NCBI GenBank assembly: GCA_022823725.1
Contig: JAJEHL010000044.1
Span: forward strand, 124,001-188,000
DNA: 64,000 nt
Reading direction: 5' to 3'
DNA from: Candidatus Latescibacterota bacterium
Lineage (GTDB): Bacteria; Latescibacterota; UBA2968
Below are positions 2,706 through 62,885 of this stretch, one piece after another. How positions within the stretch are numbered: the first letter of the stretch is position 1; each line of letters starts with the position of its first letter. A model generated the notes under the pieces. The model was not told the origin of the DNA. It did no database searches and was given only the letters and a program-made list of their open reading frames with translations. A program made the translations under genes and the position numbers.

Positions 2706-4373
2706 ATGCCAAATGTACTGTTTTTTTGTGGTGGTATAACACACCTTTATAATCAAGACATATTGAAGCAACTAATGCCAGATATTCGGTTTACAGTTTT
2801 GCTAAAAGATACTTGGGTTCGACGTATTCCCCCAAAAATACTTGGACGCTTAGATAGTGATCTCGTAATTCATGATGGTGCCCAATTGGAAGAAGAGATG
2901 TGGCTGAACCGTCCGGACTTAATTTTTTTTTCCACAGCTAATCCCGAAGTATTTCGATGTCGCCTATTTCGTAAGGCTCTTCAACTGAATATTCCAACTT
3001 TGGCAATTGAAGAAGTGAATCAATTGGCCAATAATGACGGCGTTATTAACCACTATTTTTTACCTGTAGATCGCCTGGGCGTGGCGTCGGAAGTCGAAGC
3101 CAGGCAGTTTCGTGCCCTGGGTTATTTACCCGACCAGATTGCTGTTACAGGATGGCCCTTTTATTCTGCCAACAAGGATCAAAAATTAGATCTTAAAATT
3201 GCTCTAACAAAGGATAATGTTGGACTCAAAGGAAGCAAGCGCATAGGTCTTTTGATCCTATCCTTTTCCAAAGAAAAGGGCTTGGAGAGCCTTGAAACGA
3301 TTCGCATACGCCGCCGCATGCTGGCGTTACTCCGGCAGGGCCTACCTCAGGATGTACAACTTCTTGTGAAACCTCATCCTGTGGACAAGCAACGTGATGT
3401 AAGAAAAATAGTAAAGTCAGAGATAGCAGAAGCGGTGGTGTTAGATGAGCAAGTACCCATAGAAGATGCTCTTGAAATTTGTGATTTCGTAATCAGTCGT
3501 GGTAATTCCCAAGTCATGTTTGAAGCAATGTTCAGAGGAATTCCCCTGGTCATCGTTCCTATGGATATCCGAACATTATTTGATTATGAGTTGCCTGAAT
3601 TGGTGGCAAATACACCTGACGCGCTGCGATACATTTGTCAACATGTCATAACACATCCGATTGATTATGGGCCTATTATCAACCTTCATGCGCCCTTTTT
3701 ACCAGAATCGTCTTTAGAAAAAGTGGCTGGCTTAGCAAGAGCAATGCTCGATGGCTCGATTCAAGTGCCCAGGTGGTCCAAAATGTTGGATCTGTGTCTC
3801 CAGATGAAATTTATTGGTATGGAAGAAGAGGCTCATGAAGATCTGAAACGCCTGGAATCTTTCGAAGATACGCCTGTTGAATATAGACAAACAATAAATG
3901 CAATCCATCATTTGTTTAGAAGAGAAGCGGATGTTGAAATTGTTTCGAATCTTTTGGAAAGTTTTCGTGGAAATTTAATTCGACAATGGCATGTTCAAGC
4001 GCTTTGGATACGCCAATTGTATCAAAGACGTCGAGATGTTAGTCTGGTAAGAGAGGGAATTCCCCTGACACGATCATTTACTGGTGCGGTGAATCCTCAT
4101 TATTTTATTCAGGAATTGTTAATGCGGATGGATTTAGAATTTATAGCTGGCGATCAAGAGGTAGCAGAGCAACTCAGGTCCTGGTTCCAGGAAGATTTCT
4201 ATTTTCTATGGGATTTTCAGAGGCGGGATATAAATCTGTCTCTCTGGCAAGATCACCGTATAAATTTACAGTCGCTGAAAATTTTTCTTTACACAGTATA
4301 TCGATCAGGACGAAAAAAAATAAGCCGCTTCTATCTGAATGGGCCCAACATAGTATCAAAAAAGAAACATTGA
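2706..4373 (+). CDS. Large GT-B-like surface glycan protein
   Basis: A 555-residue protein without a signal peptide. The middle contains VQLLVKPHPVDKQR followed by ISRGNSQVMFEAMFRGIPL (roughly residues 260-280), the arrangement seen in the C-terminal donor-binding lobe of GT-B enzymes such as CDP-glycerol/teichoic-acid type polymerases and capsule transferases. The N-terminal part begins LFFCGGITHLY, compatible with a first Rossmann lobe. The last 190 residues are helical and match nothing I know. It is probably a glycosyl- or polyol-phosphate transferase of the surrounding cluster. The exact reaction is unknown. Confidence 0.55.
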   Translation: MPNVLFFCGGITHLYNQDILKQLMPDIRFTVLLKDTWVRRIPPKILGRLDSDLVIHDGAQLEEEMWLNRPDLIFFSTANPEVFRCRLFRKALQLNIPTLAIEEVNQLANNDGVINHYFLPVDRLGVASEVEARQFRALGYLPDQIAVTGWPFYSANKDQKLDLKIALTKDNVGLKGSKRIGLLILSFSKEKGLESLETIRIRRRMLALLRQGLPQDVQLLVKPHPVDKQRDVRKIVKSEIAEAVVLDEQVPIEDALEICDFVISRGNSQVMFEAMFRGIPLVIVPMDIRTLFDYELPELVANTPDALRYICQHVITHPIDYGPIINLHAPFLPESSLEKVAGLARAMLDGSIQVPRWSKMLDLCLQMKFIGMEEEAHEDLKRLESFEDTPVEYRQTINAIHHLFRREADVEIVSNLLESFRGNLIRQWHVQALWIRQLYQRRRDVSLVREGIPLTRSFTGAVNPHYFIQELLMRMDLEFIAGDQEVAEQLRSWFQEDFYFLWDFQRRDINLSLWQDHRINLQSLKIFLYTVYRSGRKKISRFYLNGPNIVSKKKH

Positions 4374-56296: not shown

Positions 56297-56359
56297 GGGA
56301 TTTATGCATAGAAAATTTATTTGCTTATCAGGGTATTTTTTTTTATTCTGTCTGCGCTT
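56297..56359 (+). promoter_or_regulatory. Shared leader element, copy 1
   Basis: GGGATTTATGCATAGAAAAT then TTATTTGCTTATCAGGG recurs upstream of all three Cache-T9SS genes (also at 58371 and 60950). This copy is 105 bp from the start codon, further than the others, and lacks the CACCCATTCCTTAA box. It contains a short frame beginning MHRKFICL. Confidence 0.6.
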
Positions 56360-56463: not shown

Positions 56464-58248
56464 ATGAAAACTCGAACATTACCCACATACATGATTCCTG
56501 TTGTCGGACTGCTCGTGCTGGCAGGCGTCTTTTCTAATGCGCCTCCGCCCCTGGCACAAACGCAGGAAGATTGTCCACTCCCTGCTGGCGTGACGCCTCC
56601 TCCGGACCCGCGTGTGACGGCGCAACAGGTGGAAAACGGCAGTGCCAGCCTGATGGACTTCACGCTGGCCGTGAAAGAACTAAATCTGGAGATTGGCCAA
56701 TCAGAAACGAGCGTGGAGAAGGTATTGTACCTTGGATGTCTCGTCAGGCAAGAGGGGGGACCTTACCGTTCCGGTTCCACCTACCTCGTGCAACTGACAC
56801 CCGACGGCAGGGTATTCGTTCACGCAAAGGACATGGCATTGTCGGGCAGGCTACTCAACCCCTTGATTTATGGCGCGATCCTTCAAGCATCGGGAATCAA
56901 CCCAGCCGACCTGACCGATCCTGCGACGGCCCTGGCCGCCTTCGCTGCTGCCGCAGCCGGGAATGGCGGCGCGTTCAACATCCCCAATATCCCGGGTGCC
57001 TCCGGCTATGCCACCATATATATATCGGCCAATTTCGGGCTCCCGATCATAATGCTCGCCGGATTCGATCTCAATGAAACTCACGTGGTCGAAGAAGAGA
57101 TCGATTACGGCGACCCGACCATTACTGCCGTGGAAGTGGTAGATCGAGAAACCTTAAAGGCCTTCGTCACGCAAGCGGGAGATTTCATTCTCGCACACCA
57201 GAAGAGCGGCGATATAGCCGCTTCCTCGAAAGTCAGGATCGCCTTGCGGGATGAGAACGGGCCGTGGAGACACGGTTCCGTGTACCTCTATGTCCTGGAT
57301 CTCACCAGCAACATAGTCCTGTTCCACGGTGCGTTTCCGAACAGATTCGAGCTGCGACCTCTCGTAGGTATTGCCCGAGACGGCGTTACCGGAGAACTCA
57401 TACTGCCGCAGGTCCTCGAAGCAGCAAAGAGTAGTCCGGAAGGCGGCTTCGTGGAGTATTTCTACGACGATCCCACCGATGACACCGACAGCGCGGATAT
57501 TCCCAAGGTAGGCTACGCACGCGAGTACACCGGTGAAGTCAGTGCAGGTGGACGCGTTATCCCAATCAACTTCATCGTCGGATCGGGTTTTTATGGGCGC
57601 GCACCCGACGTTGTCCCGGACGGTCCCCTTACACAAGTGGAAGCCACGGTTATGGGCGACGCCGTCGAAGGATTGACCGTCGCGTTTGCTCGATCCATCG
57701 CCGGCCAACAGCCCGACTACGCCTATAGCGCTATCACCGATGCCAATGGCTATTTGTCCCTCACCATCTCCAACCCAGATGGCGTGAGTGGGTACTATAC
57801 AGCCCGCGCCAGCAACGTCGATGGCGAAGTCGTCGGCCAGTGGCACAGCATTCCCCTCAATCACAATCAACGCCAGGTCCTGGAACTGACCCTCGGCGGC
57901 GGTATGAAGATCGTACGCGTCGAACCACTCGCCGCAGCCAAGCCAGTGCTCGCAGCCGAGACAGTGCCGGAAATTAGTGGTCTGGCACCCAACTTCCCCA
58001 ATCCGTTCAACAGTGCCACCCTGATAACCTACCACCTGTCCAATCCCGGTCCGGTGCAGTTGGTGATCTACAATGTGCTGGGTCAGCCTGTACGCACGTT
58101 GGTGAATGAATCCCAGGCCGCTGGCACCTACCAGATACGGTGGGATGTCCTCGACCAGCGAGGCGTCTCGCTATCGACTGGGACCTATATTGCACGCCTG
58201 AGCTATCCCGGTGGGGTGCAGACGCAACAACTGCTCTACCTTAAGTAG
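56464..58248 (+). CDS. Secreted double-Cache, T9SS-sorted protein (paralogue 1)
   Basis: 594 residues from the ATG at 56464, with AAGGAG upstream. Order: signal peptide (IPVVGLLVLAGVFSNA, to about 31); Cache-like module 1 (about 52-205: SGSTYLVQLTPDGRVFVHAK ... LAGFDLNETH); Cache-like module 2 (about 225-380: PWRHGSVYLYVLDLTSNIV, PEGGFVEYFYDDPTDD, FIVGSGFYGRAP, as in sCache_2); an Ig/carboxypeptidase-regulatory-like module (about 385-478); type IX sorting tail (505-594: LAPNFPNPFNSATLITYHL ... GTYIARLSYPGG). No transmembrane helix or signalling domain follows. It is predicted to bind a small ligand outside the outer membrane. The last third is almost identical to the other paralogues. Confidence 0.8.
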   Translation: MKTRTLPTYMIPVVGLLVLAGVFSNAPPPLAQTQEDCPLPAGVTPPPDPRVTAQQVENGSASLMDFTLAVKELNLEIGQSETSVEKVLYLGCLVRQEGGPYRSGSTYLVQLTPDGRVFVHAKDMALSGRLLNPLIYGAILQASGINPADLTDPATALAAFAAAAAGNGGAFNIPNIPGASGYATIYISANFGLPIIMLAGFDLNETHVVEEEIDYGDPTITAVEVVDRETLKAFVTQAGDFILAHQKSGDIAASSKVRIALRDENGPWRHGSVYLYVLDLTSNIVLFHGAFPNRFELRPLVGIARDGVTGELILPQVLEAAKSSPEGGFVEYFYDDPTDDTDSADIPKVGYAREYTGEVSAGGRVIPINFIVGSGFYGRAPDVVPDGPLTQVEATVMGDAVEGLTVAFARSIAGQQPDYAYSAITDANGYLSLTISNPDGVSGYYTARASNVDGEVVGQWHSIPLNHNQRQVLELTLGGGMKIVRVEPLAAAKPVLAAETVPEISGLAPNFPNPFNSATLITYHLSNPGPVQLVIYNVLGQPVRTLVNESQAAGTYQIRWDVLDQRGVSLSTGTYIARLSYPGGVQTQQLLYLK

Positions 58249-58265
58249 CGCCGAACGCACAAAGC

Positions 58266-58302
58266 AAAAGGCCCCTGAAAATAAATTCAGGGGCCTTTTT
58301 TC
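58266..58302 (+). terminator. Rho-independent terminator after Cache paralogue 1
   Basis: AAAAGGCCCCTGAA pairs with TTCAGGGGCCTTTTTT around a short loop. The same stem type follows the two other paralogues. Confidence 0.92.
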
Positions 58303-58303
58303 G

Positions 58304-58362
58304 TACGCCTCGTCTTTTAACCCACCCTACTGAACCCGCATCCATGTATCAACCCAGGCCCC
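58304..58362 (-). pseudogene. Leftover 3' end of a second copy of the minus-strand lipoprotein gene
   Basis: TACGCCTCGTCTTTT and CCTACTGAACCCGC followed by CCATGTATCAACCCA match, almost base for base, the sequence at 60329-60384 that encodes the C-terminus (VDTWARVQ and stop) of the lipoprotein gene there. Here the rest of the gene is missing and the leader of paralogue 2 follows directly. Confidence 0.75.
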
Positions 58363-58370
58363 TTATAAAT

Positions 58371-58470
58371 GGAATTTATGCTTAGAAAATTGATTTGCTT
58401 ACCAGGATATTTTTTATTATTCTCTTTGCGCTTATTCCTTATCACCCATTCCTTAAGGGAGGACCATCCT
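58371..58470 (+). promoter_or_regulatory. Shared leader element, copy 2
   Basis: Same leader as at 56297 (GGAATTTATGCTTAGAAAAT, then TTGCTTACCAGGATATT), followed by CACCCATTCCTTAAGGGAGG, which includes the ribosome binding site of paralogue 2 and is also present in copy 3. Confidence 0.7.
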
Positions 58471-58471
58471 G

Positions 58472-60277
58472 ATGAAAGCTCGAACATTACTCACGATTCC
58501 CATTGCCGGACTGCTCGTACTGACCGGCGTCTTTTTTAATGCGCATCCCGTCCTGGCAGATTGTCAACTCCCGCCCGGCGTGTCGCCTCCTGCGGCCCCG
58601 GCTGTGACGGCACAACAGGTGGAAGACGGCAGCGCCAGCCTGATGGACTTCTCACTGGGCGTGAGAGATCAATTCAGCCGGAGAGCATCGACGCCAGACC
58701 AATTGTTCTACTTCGGATGTCTTATCAGGGAAGATGGGAGCCATTGGCATTCCGGTTCCACCTTCCTTGTGATACTGACGCCCGACAGCAGGGTGCTCAT
58801 TCACACAAAAGATATGGCATTGTCCGGCAGACTGCTCAATCCCGTGATTTATGGCGCGATCCTTTCTGCGCTGGGAGTACCCACAACCGTTCTGGCCGAC
58901 CTGGCTTCTCCCGATCCTGCTGTCGCCGCCCAGGCTTCCGCAGCCGTCTTTAACACATTGATGCAAGAACCTGATGCCGCATTCGATGCGACCAACCCTA
59001 TTCCGGGTCTAAGTCCGGGGATACCGGGTGCCTCCGGCTATGTCACCGTATATTCCTCGGCCAATTTAGGACCGATCATGCTGCTTGCCGGATTCGATCT
59101 CAATGAAACTCACGTGGTTGAAGAAGACCTCGATTACGGCGACCCAATCATTACCGCCAGAGATGTGGTAGATCGAGAAACCCTGAAGACCTTCGTCACG
59201 CAAGCGGGGGAGTGGTTTATCGAAATCCAGAAGACCGGCGATTTAACCGCTATCTCGAAAGCCAAAATCGCCTTGCGAGATCCGAACGGACCCTGGAGGC
59301 ATGGTAACGTGTACATCTATATCATAGATCTCATCAGCAACCTCACCCGGGTTCACGGAGGATTTCCGAACAAATTTGAGCTTCGACCTCCGGGCATTAC
59401 CCGAGACGCCATTACTGGGGAACTCGTTTGGGATCTGCTCCTCGCCGCGGCGACCAGTAGCCCGGAAGGCGGCTTTTGGGAATACCACTTCGACGATCCC
59501 AATGACGACACCGACAGCGCCGACATCCCCAAGTTGGGCTACTCACGCGAGTTCAAAGGTTCAATCCAGACAGCCGACGGAAAAGTCGTCCCACTCAACA
59601 TCATCGCCGGATCGGGCTTCTATGGGCGCGCACCCGTTGTTGTCCCGGACGGTCCCTTTACACAAGTGGAAGCCACGGTTATGGGCGACGCTGTCGAGGG
59701 ATTGACCGTCGCGTTTGCGCGATCCATCGCAGGCCAGCCAGCCGACTACGCCTATAATGCCATCACCGATGCCAATGGCTCTTTGTCCCTCACCATCTCC
59801 AACGCAGATGGCGTGAATGGCTACTATACAGCCCGCGCCAGCAACGCCAGTGGCGAAATCGTCGGCCAGTGGCACTCCATTCCCCTCAATCACAATCAAC
59901 GCCAGGTATTAGAACTCACCCTCGGCGGCGAGATGAAGGTCGTACGCGTCGGACCACTCGCCGCAGCCAAGCCAGTACTCGCAGCCGAGACAGTACCGGA
60001 AGTTAGCGGGCTGGCACCCAACTTTCCCAACCCATTCAACAGCGCCACCCTGATTACCTACCACCTGTCCAATCCCGGTCCGGTGCAGTTGGTAATCTAC
60101 AATGTGCTGGGGCAGCCGGTACGCACGCTGGTGGATAAGTCCCAGGCCGCAGGCTCTTACCAGATACGGTGGGATGTCCTCGACCAGCGGGGCGTCTCGC
60201 TATCGACGGGGACCTATATCGCACGCCTGAGCTATCCCGGCGGGGTGCAGACGCAACGCCTGCTCTACCTCAAGTAG
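58472..60277 (+). CDS. Secreted double-Cache, T9SS-sorted protein (paralogue 2)
   Basis: 601 residues; GGGAGG is 9 bases upstream of the ATG. Same plan as paralogue 1: signal peptide (IAGLLVLTGVFFNAHPVLA), Cache-like module 1 (HSGSTFLVILTPDSRVLIHT ... LLAGFDLNETHVV), module 2 (PWRHGNVYIYIIDLISNLT, FDDPNDDTDSADIPK, IAGSGFYGRAP), Ig-like module and the same type IX tail. The first 380 residues differ clearly from paralogue 1, while the last 210 are nearly the same. Substrate or ligand specificity has probably diverged in the Cache modules. Confidence 0.8.
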   Translation: MKARTLLTIPIAGLLVLTGVFFNAHPVLADCQLPPGVSPPAAPAVTAQQVEDGSASLMDFSLGVRDQFSRRASTPDQLFYFGCLIREDGSHWHSGSTFLVILTPDSRVLIHTKDMALSGRLLNPVIYGAILSALGVPTTVLADLASPDPAVAAQASAAVFNTLMQEPDAAFDATNPIPGLSPGIPGASGYVTVYSSANLGPIMLLAGFDLNETHVVEEDLDYGDPIITARDVVDRETLKTFVTQAGEWFIEIQKTGDLTAISKAKIALRDPNGPWRHGNVYIYIIDLISNLTRVHGGFPNKFELRPPGITRDAITGELVWDLLLAAATSSPEGGFWEYHFDDPNDDTDSADIPKLGYSREFKGSIQTADGKVVPLNIIAGSGFYGRAPVVVPDGPFTQVEATVMGDAVEGLTVAFARSIAGQPADYAYNAITDANGSLSLTISNADGVNGYYTARASNASGEIVGQWHSIPLNHNQRQVLELTLGGEMKVVRVGPLAAAKPVLAAETVPEVSGLAPNFPNPFNSATLITYHLSNPGPVQLVIYNVLGQPVRTLVDKSQAAGSYQIRWDVLDQRGVSLSTGTYIARLSYPGGVQTQRLLYLK

Positions 60278-60289
60278 TGCTGAGCTAAG

Positions 60290-60327
60290 AAAAATGCCCC
60301 TGAAAATTAATTCAGGGGCATTTTTTT
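60290..60327 (+). terminator. Rho-independent terminator after Cache paralogue 2
   Basis: AAAAATGCCCCTGAA pairs with TTCAGGGGCATTTTTTT. It also faces the end of the convergent lipoprotein gene. Confidence 0.92.
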
Positions 60328-60353
60328 ATACGCCTCGTCTTTTTTACAACACC

Positions 60354-60860
60354 CTACTGAACCCGCGCCCATGTATCAACCCATACCCCCTCATAAGATG
60401 CCGTCATTGTATTGCCTTCAAAAACCCATTGCTGCTCATCGTGTGCAATCTCAATTTTATCCCCCTCAACCGTAATTTTGCCCTTCACGCTCTTGGCCTT
60501 GGGATAAATCGACATCGGTGCTTCGGCAGAAGAGCGATATCCCTGGCGAACCAGCACATGCCTGGCTCGCGTAATCGCCGATGTAGAAATTTCATACGTA
60601 CTGCCAGCATAATTAAATCGCCGGGGCGTACCGTCTTTTAAGTCTTCGAGAAGACTGAGCGTAACATGTGCTTTGCGAGAACTGATTGGCACCCAAAAAA
60701 GCGACCCTTTTATATGCGGGCCACGCAACACAGTCCCATCTTGCAATTGGCGGGTTTGCAAGACCCAGGTACCTGAAAGTTGCGTTTGCATATCTGACAG
60801 ACGATCACTACAACCCTGCAGCGCGAACGCGGAAAGAAGACATATCATCAGGCGTTTCAT
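60354..60860 (-). CDS. Lipocalin-like lipoprotein
   Basis: 168 residues from ATG 60860 with a lipobox (FALQGC). The chain is beta-rich: QLSGTWVLQTRQL at the start, then SVKGKITVEGDKIEIAH and QQWVFEGNTMTASYEGVWV, the pattern of small lipocalin-like or DUF-type lipoproteins. It lies between Cache paralogues 2 and 3 on the opposite strand. A copy of its 3' end downstream of paralogue 1 shows it was part of the duplicated unit. Confidence 0.65.
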   Translation of the reverse strand: MKRLMICLLSAFALQGCSDRLSDMQTQLSGTWVLQTRQLQDGTVLRGPHIKGSLFWVPISSRKAHVTLSLLEDLKDGTPRRFNYAGSTYEISTSAITRARHVLVRQGYRSSAEAPMSIYPKAKSVKGKITVEGDKIEIAHDEQQWVFEGNTMTASYEGVWVDTWARVQ

Positions 60861-60949
60861 CTCAATCTCCCTAGAAATTATTATCCGAAAAATGAACAAC
60901 TACAGTATATTTTTCGATTTGCGCGCTGTCAAGACAAAAAAAGCAATTT

Positions 60950-61051
60950 GGATCTATGCATAAAAAATTTATTTGCTTACCAGAGCATCTTCATATTATT
61001 ATTTTTACGCATATTCCTTCACCACCCATTCCTTAAAGGGAGGACCATCGC
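60950..61051 (+). promoter_or_regulatory. Shared leader element, copy 3
   Basis: GGATCTATGCATAAAAAATT, then ATTTGCTTACCAGAGC, followed by CACCCATTCCTTAAAGGGAG, as in copy 2. The spacing to the ATG of paralogue 3 is the same as in copy 2. Confidence 0.7.
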
Positions 61052-61052
61052 G

Positions 61053-62885
61053 ATGAAAACTCGAACATTACCCACATACATGATTCCTGTTGTCGGACTG
61101 CTCGTGCTGGCTGGCGTCTTTTCCAATGCGCCGCCCGCCCTGGCAGATTGTCCACTCCCGCCCGGCGTGACGCCTCCTGCGGATCCGAGTGTGACGGCGC
61201 AACAGGTGGAAGACGGCAACGCGACCCTGAGGGACTTCGCGCTGGCCGTGAGAGAGCGGTCCAGAGAATACGCCCAGGGGGCCGCGACCGCGGAACAAGC
61301 GGTATATATCGGATGCATCATAAGGCAGGACGATGGGATTTGGCATTCCGGTTCCACGTACATCGTGAGCCTGACTCCCGACGGCAGAGTGTACGTTCAC
61401 GCGAAGGACATGTCGTTAGCGGGGAGGCTGCTCAACCCTGTGATTTATGGCGCGATCCTTTTTGCGTTGGGCGTATCTCCAACCGATCTGGCCAATCTGG
61501 CATCTCCCGATCCTGCTATTGCCGCCCAGGCTTTCGGCGCGGTCATGGGCACATTGTCGCAAGAACCGGACGGCGCATTCGACGCGACCACCCCCATTCC
61601 AGGACTGTCGCCAGGCATACCAGGTGCTTCGGGCCATGCCGCCATCTATGTCGAGCCCAATTTAGGGGGTGCTCCGATTGTGATGCTCATGGGATTCGAT
61701 CTCAATGAATCTCACCTGGTTCCCATTAGCGATGAAGCCATCGATTACGGCGATCCGGCCATTACCGCCAGGGACGTGGTGAACCGGGAAACCTTGAAGG
61801 CCTTCGTTACCCAAGCGGGAAATTACTTTCTTGACCTCATGAGTTCCGGCGATTTAGCCGCACTGGCGAAAGCCAGGATCGCCTTGCGGGATCCGAACGG
61901 ACCCTGGAGACACGGTTCCGTGTACCTCTACGTCCTGGATATTGTCAGCAACGTCATCATTTTTCACGCAGCCTTCCCGGACAAATACGAGTATCGGCCT
62001 CTGATACCGACCGTCCTTGACGCTGTGACCGGAGAGTTCATTCTGCCTCAAGTCATCGAAGCGGCGAAGAGTAGCCCGGAAGGCGGCTTCGTGGAGTATT
62101 ACTTCGACGATCCCACCGACGACACCGACAGGGCCGATATCCCCAAGGTGGGATACGCACGCGAGTTCGCCGCTGAAATCCGGAGGGCAGACGGAAGCAC
62201 CGTCCCGGCTGACTTCATCGTTGGATCGGGCTTCTATGGGCGCGCACCCGACGTTGTCCCGGACGGTCCCCTTACACAAGTGGAAGCCACAGTCCTGGGC
62301 GACGCCGTCGAAGGATTGACCGTCGAATTTGCTCGATCCATCGCCGGCCAGCCAGCCGACTACGCCTATAATGCCATCACCGATGCCAATGGCTCTTTGT
62401 CCCTCACCATCTCCAACGCAGATGGTGTCAGTGGTTACTACACATCTCGCGCCAGCAACGCCGATGGCGAAATCGTCGGCCAGTGGCACTCCATTCCCCT
62501 CAATCACAATCAACGCCAGGTATTAGAACTGACGCTCGGCGGCGATATGAAGATCGTACGCGTCGGACCACTGACCGCATCCAAGCCAGTACTCGCAGCC
62601 GAGACAGAGGTCAGCGGTCTGGCGCCCAACTTTCCCAACCCGTTCAACAGCGCCACCCTGATTACCTACCACCTGTCCAATCCCGGTCCGGTGCAGTTGG
62701 TGATCTACAATGTGCTGGGGCAGCCGGTACGCACGCTGGTGGATAAGTCCCAGGCCGCAGGCTCTTACCAGATACGGTGGGATGTCCTCGACCAGCGGGG
62801 CGTCTCGCTATCGACGGGGATCTATATCGCACGCCTGAGCTATCCCGGTGGGGTGCAAACGCAACGCCTGCTCTACCTCAAGTAG
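61053..62885 (+). CDS. Secreted double-Cache, T9SS-sorted protein (paralogue 3)
   Basis: 610 residues from the ATG at 61053 with GGGAGG upstream. Signal peptide nearly identical to paralogue 1 (TYMIPVVGLLVLAGVFSNAP). Cache-like module 1 (HSGSTYIVSLTPDGRVYVHA ... MLMGFDLNESHLV), module 2 (PWRHGSVYLYVLDIVSNVI, FDDPTDDTDRADIPK, IVGSGFYGRAP), Ig-like module, type IX tail as in the others. The tail is 2 residues shorter before the sorting domain (TEVSGLAPNFPNP). It is the last array member before the sigma-factor gene. Confidence 0.8.
   Translation: MKTRTLPTYMIPVVGLLVLAGVFSNAPPALADCPLPPGVTPPADPSVTAQQVEDGNATLRDFALAVRERSREYAQGAATAEQAVYIGCIIRQDDGIWHSGSTYIVSLTPDGRVYVHAKDMSLAGRLLNPVIYGAILFALGVSPTDLANLASPDPAIAAQAFGAVMGTLSQEPDGAFDATTPIPGLSPGIPGASGHAAIYVEPNLGGAPIVMLMGFDLNESHLVPISDEAIDYGDPAITARDVVNRETLKAFVTQAGNYFLDLMSSGDLAALAKARIALRDPNGPWRHGSVYLYVLDIVSNVIIFHAAFPDKYEYRPLIPTVLDAVTGEFILPQVIEAAKSSPEGGFVEYYFDDPTDDTDRADIPKVGYAREFAAEIRRADGSTVPADFIVGSGFYGRAPDVVPDGPLTQVEATVLGDAVEGLTVEFARSIAGQPADYAYNAITDANGSLSLTISNADGVSGYYTSRASNADGEIVGQWHSIPLNHNQRQVLELTLGGDMKIVRVGPLTASKPVLAAETEVSGLAPNFPNPFNSATLITYHLSNPGPVQLVIYNVLGQPVRTLVDKSQAAGSYQIRWDVLDQRGVSLSTGIYIARLSYPGGVQTQRLLYLK

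Follow-up and report, generated by a model that had tools for sequence, protein, structure and literature searches.

A tandem array of predicted exported double-Cache proteins in a Latescibacterota bacterium, from a candidate modular family shared among sponge-associated bacteria

As Cache domains are known above all for sensing in membrane receptors, the question arises of what such a domain would do in a protein that is predicted to leave the cell and carries no signalling part. Three genes of this kind lie in a stretch of 64,000 nucleotides from Candidatus Latescibacterota bacterium (assembly GCA_022823725.1, contig JAJEHL010000044.1, positions 124,001 to 188,000 of the forward strand; hereafter the window). 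Each encodes a signal peptide, two Cache-like modules, an immunoglobulin (Ig)-like module and a sorting tail of the type IX secretion system (T9SS). The answer that we favour, with a probability of about 0.6, is that these exported receptor-like proteins belong to a modular, horizontally traded family of sponge symbionts and would bind a small ligand. The genes, and the parts of gene 3, are located in the window as follows.

56464..58248, plus strand: gene 1, 594 amino acids (aa), signal peptide, two Cache-like modules, Ig-like module and T9SS type A sorting tail (open reading frame (ORF), profile scans)
58472..60277, plus strand: gene 2, 601 aa, architecture of gene 1 (tail by TIGR04183, Cache by homology)
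61053..62885, plus strand: gene 3, 610 aa, architecture of gene 1 (TIGR04183, dCache_2, AlphaFold2 model)
61146..61763, plus strand: gene 3, Cache module 1, with Cys33 and Cys88 (hhalign to module 2, conservation, AlphaFold2)
61764..62258, plus strand: gene 3, Cache module 2, RDPNGPWRHG...FH.AFP...PKVGYAR (dCache_2 PF08269 over cut-off, AlphaFold2)
62259..62567, plus strand: gene 3, Ig-like module ('FARSIAGQ'), common to ligand-binding lipoproteins of the same genome
62568..62882, plus strand: gene 3, linker and T9SS type A sorting domain (TIGR04183, FlgD_ig)

This module order, proposed in the initial annotation, was borne out by the ORFs and the profile scans and, as had also been claimed, no transmembrane or signalling part was predicted by the Pfam and NCBIfam scans of genes 1 to 3, in contrast to membrane Cache receptors such as chemoreceptors and kinases. 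The genes had further been described as consecutive; three plus-strand ORFs of the same architecture are indeed where they were placed, but they are not strictly consecutive, as an opposite-strand ORF (60354-60899) intervenes between genes 2 and 3. By eye, a Sec-type signal peptide is found on each protein, that of gene 3 with a putative cleavage after MKTRTLPTYMIPVVGLLVLAGVFSNAPPALA and before D; the start of gene 3 is at 61053 and not at the upstream TTG of a 645-aa ORF.

The Cache assignment appears sound but uneven among the copies. The isolated Cache region of gene 3 matched dCache_2 (PF08269) with 28.2 bits, over the cut-off of 26.5, and full-length gene 3 with 26.2 bits; in the Pfam scan gene 1 reached 15.1 bits and gene 2 gave no match, so that these two are assigned by homology, their Cache regions being 66% and 65% identical, respectively, to that of gene 3. 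What settles the matter is that 49 out of 64 homologous regions match dCache_2 at E<=0.001, with multi-copy homologues reaching 62 and 80 bits. Moreover, module 1 is homologous to module 2 (hhalign 96%, E 4e-9; reversed control 0.1%), which fits the published origin of dCache_2 by tandem duplication of sCache_2 (PMC4822843). The structure prediction agrees with the initial annotation, since the AlphaFold2 model of the two-module region (predicted local distance difference test score, pLDDT, 89.9; predicted template modelling score 0.87) has one long helix and five strands in each module; the full-length gene 3 model has a pLDDT of 80, and PorU and FlgD are among its Foldseek matches. Conservation is highest in the Cache core (RDPNGPWRHG, FH, PKVGYAR), and Cys33 and Cys88 of module 1 are nearly invariant across phyla. 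The array proteins are thus like dCache_2 and sCache_2 (PF08269, PF17200) in having a module 2 over the dCache_2 cut-off, a duplicated sCache_2-like unit and the helix with five strands, and unlike them in the helical insertion and conserved cysteine pair of module 1. They also differ from the dCache_2 and sCache_2 receptors in having no output part and being predicted to be exported; published counts of the Cache family are dominated by signalling receptors, namely kinases, chemoreceptors and cyclases (PMC4822843).

Export through the T9SS had been deduced from the C-terminal tail. TIGR04183 matched the last ~80 residues of genes 1, 2 and 3 with 39.6, 41.8 and 44.8 bits, respectively (cut-off 23), but Pfam Por_Secre_tail gave 21-22 bits, below its cut-off of 27. 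FlgD_ig is also over its cut-off in the three genes (33.1 bits in gene 1), and the autotransporter domain PF03797 is absent from them in the Pfam scan. T9SS genes, whose absence would have spoken against the initial annotation, are present in the genome: it encodes SprA (~634 bits, cut-off 200), 14 places over the cut-off for the PorV family, and a PorU-like protein below its cut-off, in a search that covered these three components. The array proteins therefore resemble T9SS type A cargo (TIGR04183) in combining a signal peptide with a C-terminal sorting domain in a genome with SprA and PorV-family proteins. Together with the surface-type tails on homologues described below, these data give good support to the exported or surface-displayed Cache module of the initial annotation, secretion itself being predicted. 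Known T9SS cargos are mostly enzymes and adhesins, and no literature report of Cache as T9SS cargo was found in the searches made.

The Ig-like module matches Big_1/BIg21 below cut-off. It recurs in proteins of the same genome with lipoprotein-like starts, beside Peripla_BP_6, sCache_2 and other ligand-binding domains, which suggests that this genome builds several extracytoplasmic binders on it. Five of the loci from this genome (L021, L023, L024, L025 and L026) have a lipoprotein-like start and the 'RSIAGQ' Ig-like module, mostly placed before solute-binding or single-Cache domains. A further lipoprotein-like protein (L022:3083-5005) is an unusual fusion of the Ig-like module with Peripla_BP_6 (173 bits) and Cu/Zn superoxide dismutase (132 bits).

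The double-Cache region is far from private to this bacterium. A scan of 84,980 species genomes by two exact peptide motifs, with the best 80 results kept, gave at least 79 distinct loci with the same region. They lie in metagenome-assembled genomes (MAGs) whose titles name at least eight phyla and include Latescibacterota, Gemmatimonadota, Alpha-, Gamma- and Deltaproteobacteria, Acidobacteriota, Binatota, Nitrospirota, Chloroflexota, Cyanobacteria and Aminicenantes. These titles are inexact, since several genomes titled 'Gemmatimonadota' grouped in the window's own phylum ('Gemmatimonadota' RHO1_bin_28 in its order), yet at least eight titled phyla still stand. The Cache regions of genes 1 to 3 are up to 78% identical to those of homologues without a T9SS tail, and 47-74% identical to the proteobacterial, acidobacterial, Nitrospirota, Chloroflexota, Binatia and cyanobacterial examples. 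Occurrence is patchy: in even samples of groups, each count including the centre genome, the region was present in 1 of 386 Cyanobacteria, 2 of 296 Nitrospirota, 2 of 301 Chloroflexota and 4 of 385 genomes of the class of genome G065. Other genomes of the window's phylum hold arrays of two to four copies.

What follows the Cache pair changes with the titled host: Latescibacterota have a T9SS tail, Proteobacteria, Nitrospirota and Cyanobacteria an autotransporter barrel, Chloroflexota an apparent lipid anchor, and further groups have ends of other kinds. Classified by motif, the 77 rows of the tree comprise 41 autotransporter-type tails, 12 T9SS tails, seven with further Cache repeats, five Binatia-type, six with two Acidobacteriota-type ends, two Chloroflexota lipoprotein-like and four short or unknown ones. 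The Pfam autotransporter domain (PF03797) was found in 27 of the 29 complete homologues tested (E<=0.001), and one single polypeptide (L068:5884-11256) has three successive double-Cache units followed by this domain. These homologues, and not the window genes, are like type Va autotransporters (PF03797; PMC9289746) in carrying a beta-domain downstream of the passenger; a review of that class has no mention of Cache (PMC9289746), and a Cache passenger on an autotransporter appears to be undescribed. At two other loci of the window's phylum (L158 and L160), short Cache-like proteins that end in 'SWGQLKSxF' form arrays, and one double-Cache protein of L160 (at about position 3860) ends similarly, possibly with another C-terminal signal.

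The distribution of tails over the Cache tree suggests that gene transfer has carried the module between phyla, largely or entirely within sponge-associated genomes, a point missed by the earlier reading of the single sequence. Autotransporter and T9SS rows interleave: the approximately unbiased (AU) test rejected the T9SS rows as one clade (p-AU 2.8e-8), and likewise the window copies with their orthologues (p-AU 4e-4), both values being somewhat generous because the tree was known before the tests were made. The window's copies are spread over separate clades that each span phyla: gene 3 is placed with an autotransporter protein from a different genome, and gene 1 with short-tailed and autotransporter proteins. 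When the Nitrospirales member is compared with its gamma, delta or Binatia homologues, identity is 71-73% in the linker and barrel and 59-64% in the Cache region, against 44-49% for PolA between those genomes (a partial-length alignment in two of the three cases); PolA identity is 59-60% between Nitrospirales and two alphaproteobacterial genomes. Glutamine synthetase was dropped as a vertical yardstick in favour of PolA, because even same-order genomes share just 37-44% identity in it. Some members have neighbours that were named by eye: the Nitrospirales one, on a single-contig chromosome, is flanked by polA on one side and argB/hslU on the other, and a cyanobacterial one adjoins nusG, rplK, rplA and hisA; another member is found in a single-contig chromosome titled Latescibacteria. 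No relatives occurred in the viral contigs, phages or plasmids searched, and thus no transfer vehicle was found.

As for habitat, all 23 loci that were checked come from sponges, and the source bacterium is probably sponge-associated as well. Nineteen of them are 'jk18x' bins of an Ircinia study (PMC9531527), three belong to an Aplysina aerophoba study (PMC5649159), and one was placed by its species name alone, Candidatus Synechococcus spongiarum. Most of the other loci are probably also from sponges: for 31, the abbreviations RHO, COS, IRC, APA and CO would fit sponge species in PMC8163846, and six 'p16x' bins follow the naming style of the jk18 Ircinia set. No locus among the 79 was shown to be from outside sponges. 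It was reported that sponge Thaumarchaeota are enriched in Cache domains, with a proposed role in host recognition (PMC7848895); unlike those archaeal proteins, the family described here has no archaeal member among its at least 79 loci. Lateral transfer of sponge-enriched genes between microbial taxa was also described (PMC8163846), in a paper whose main text does not mention Cache, and the present family is similar in being probably sponge-enriched and common to several taxa.

Within the array, synonymous divergence (dS) differs sharply along the genes. Between the copies of the genome dS is 0.50-0.68 in the Cache part and 0.16-0.28 in the Ig-like module and tail (Fisher p 1e-3 to 6e-8), with 0.53 and 0.16, respectively, for gene 2 against gene 3, but the contrast is reversed when gene 2 is compared with its orthologue in the same genus (0.06 for the Cache part, 0.27 for the Ig-like module and tail; p 4e-7). 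Because the contrast is opposite within the genome and between orthologues, either the tails are homogenised among neighbouring copies while the Cache parts stay distinct, or resident tails receive new Cache parts by exchange. With diverse Cache parts and homogenised Ig-like modules and tails, the array would present a number of binding parts on a single unchanging stalk.

According to these data, the proteins would be exported by Sec and then by type IX secretion, leaving a tandem sCache_2-type pair on or outside the cell, and different lineages would display the same binding part on different tails (T9SS, autotransporter barrel or lipid anchor). As there is no output domain, the usual signalling route is impossible, and the most economical role, and most likely job, would be the extracellular binding of small metabolites derived from the host or the community, for their capture, buffering or recognition. 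By precedent of the Cache family, from which we infer ligand binding, the ligand may be a small amino compound, an organic acid or a urea-like metabolite, and the proteins may be of benefit in the sponge. A broader proposal, which we advance tentatively and would not yet bet on, is a 'public' receptor of the sponge niche: one extracellular cassette that binds small molecules would circulate between phyla of sponge symbionts and be displayed in each by a type IX, type V or lipid-anchor route, while arrays would hold the stalk constant and swap binding parts or let them diverge, giving a surface repertoire tuned to sponge metabolites.

Several points weigh against the favoured interpretation. 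The Pfam Cache scores of genes 1 and 2 are weak, a sequence search of the PDB gave no significant match, and Foldseek against the PDB (best E 5e-3) returned weak PAS/Cache-like matches only, those to Helicobacter pylori TlpA and Vibrio cholerae LuxQ having E > 0.001 and a template modelling score of ~0.2. For most of the 79 loci the sponge origin is drawn from titles and naming, and the habitat of 19 (14 SB06xx, two Plut, two OX638 chromosomes and one rhlh7) is unverified. Besides, distant members from outside sponges could escape a scan by two exact motifs with the best 80 kept, and exclusivity to sponges is thus unprovable by it. It might also be argued that the cross-phylum pattern comes from mis-binned contigs of sponge metagenomes or from plain vertical inheritance, as nearly all members are MAGs and GenBank titles conflict in places with the phylum grouping (e.g. 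RHO1_bin_28). However, the tails differ with the titled host, occurrence is very patchy, and members are found in the single-contig Nitrospirales and Latescibacteria chromosomes and beside the cyanobacterial nusG, rplK, rplA and hisA, which makes this explanation very improbable.

The main rival, which we regard as unlikely though clearly ahead of the other alternatives, concerns function: the Cache pair could serve as a sticky fold by which the symbiont clings to sponge cells or matrix or to other bacteria, with no small ligand. Variable adhesin families show a variable binding part on a constant stalk, and the tandem arrays have the same pairing; surface display by several routes and up to three double-Cache units per protein, suggesting multivalency, are also in line with adhesion. 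Nevertheless, conservation peaks in the Cache core, as expected if a binding or folding core is kept, and several Ig-module relatives in the same genome carry classical small-ligand binding domains. The latter (the module fused to Peripla_BP_6, with a weak SBP_bac_3 match or with a single Cache in lipoprotein-like proteins) would equally suit nutrient capture, in which a metabolite is handed to an outer-membrane transporter as by a surface glycan-binding protein, but no transporter gene lies directly beside the array (window ORFs, by eye), and we consider this role quite improbable. Finally, the proteins might be periplasmic partners of a separate membrane receptor, with a FlgD_ig-like tail that is no export signal, given that FlgD_ig is over and Por_Secre_tail under its cut-off. 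There is very little to be said for it when TIGR04183 passes clearly, SprA and PorV-family proteins are present, and homologues bear outer-membrane autotransporter domains.

If the exported, small-ligand-binding family holds true, it would be a candidate symbiosis factor with testable biochemistry, whose ligand would tell what unrelated sponge symbionts all bind. It would also be a clear natural case of a single passenger that is exported by type IX secretion in some hosts and by type V in others, and a case of concerted evolution that sets a constant stalk apart from a variable binding part. The parts are known; their combination and the sharing across phyla were without report in the literature searches made, and the general idea has precedent in Cache enrichment (PMC7848895) and lateral transfer (PMC8163846).

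A 31-base element is found ~70-130 bases 5' of each gene, with three matches in the window (<=3 mismatches) and none expected by chance, and it was also found in same-genus loci. Because it precedes each gene, it suggests that genes 1 to 3 are under shared control. These matches and the intervening ORF are listed below.

56301..56331, plus strand: conserved element (TTTATGCATAGAAAATTTATTTGCTTAYCAG) upstream of gene 1, possible promoter or leader (motif scan)
58375..58405, plus strand: conserved upstream element of gene 2 (motif scan)
60953..60983, plus strand: conserved upstream element of gene 3 (motif scan)
60354..60899, minus strand: ORF between genes 2 and 3, probable small lipoprotein (MKRLMICLLSAFALQGC...), outside the array family (by eye)

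Terminator-like inverted repeats with T runs were seen by eye after genes 1 and 2; since the plus-strand scan did not list them, separate transcription of the array genes is no more than suggested. The array is flanked by glutamine synthetase-like and sigma factor-like genes (window ORFs, by eye), and the GC content of genes 1 to 3 (57-59%, window mean 51%) is a weak difference that carries no conclusion. A fourth copy of the family lies elsewhere in the genome (L020:5216-7212), with a frameshift near residue 80 that makes it either a pseudogene or the product of an assembly error.

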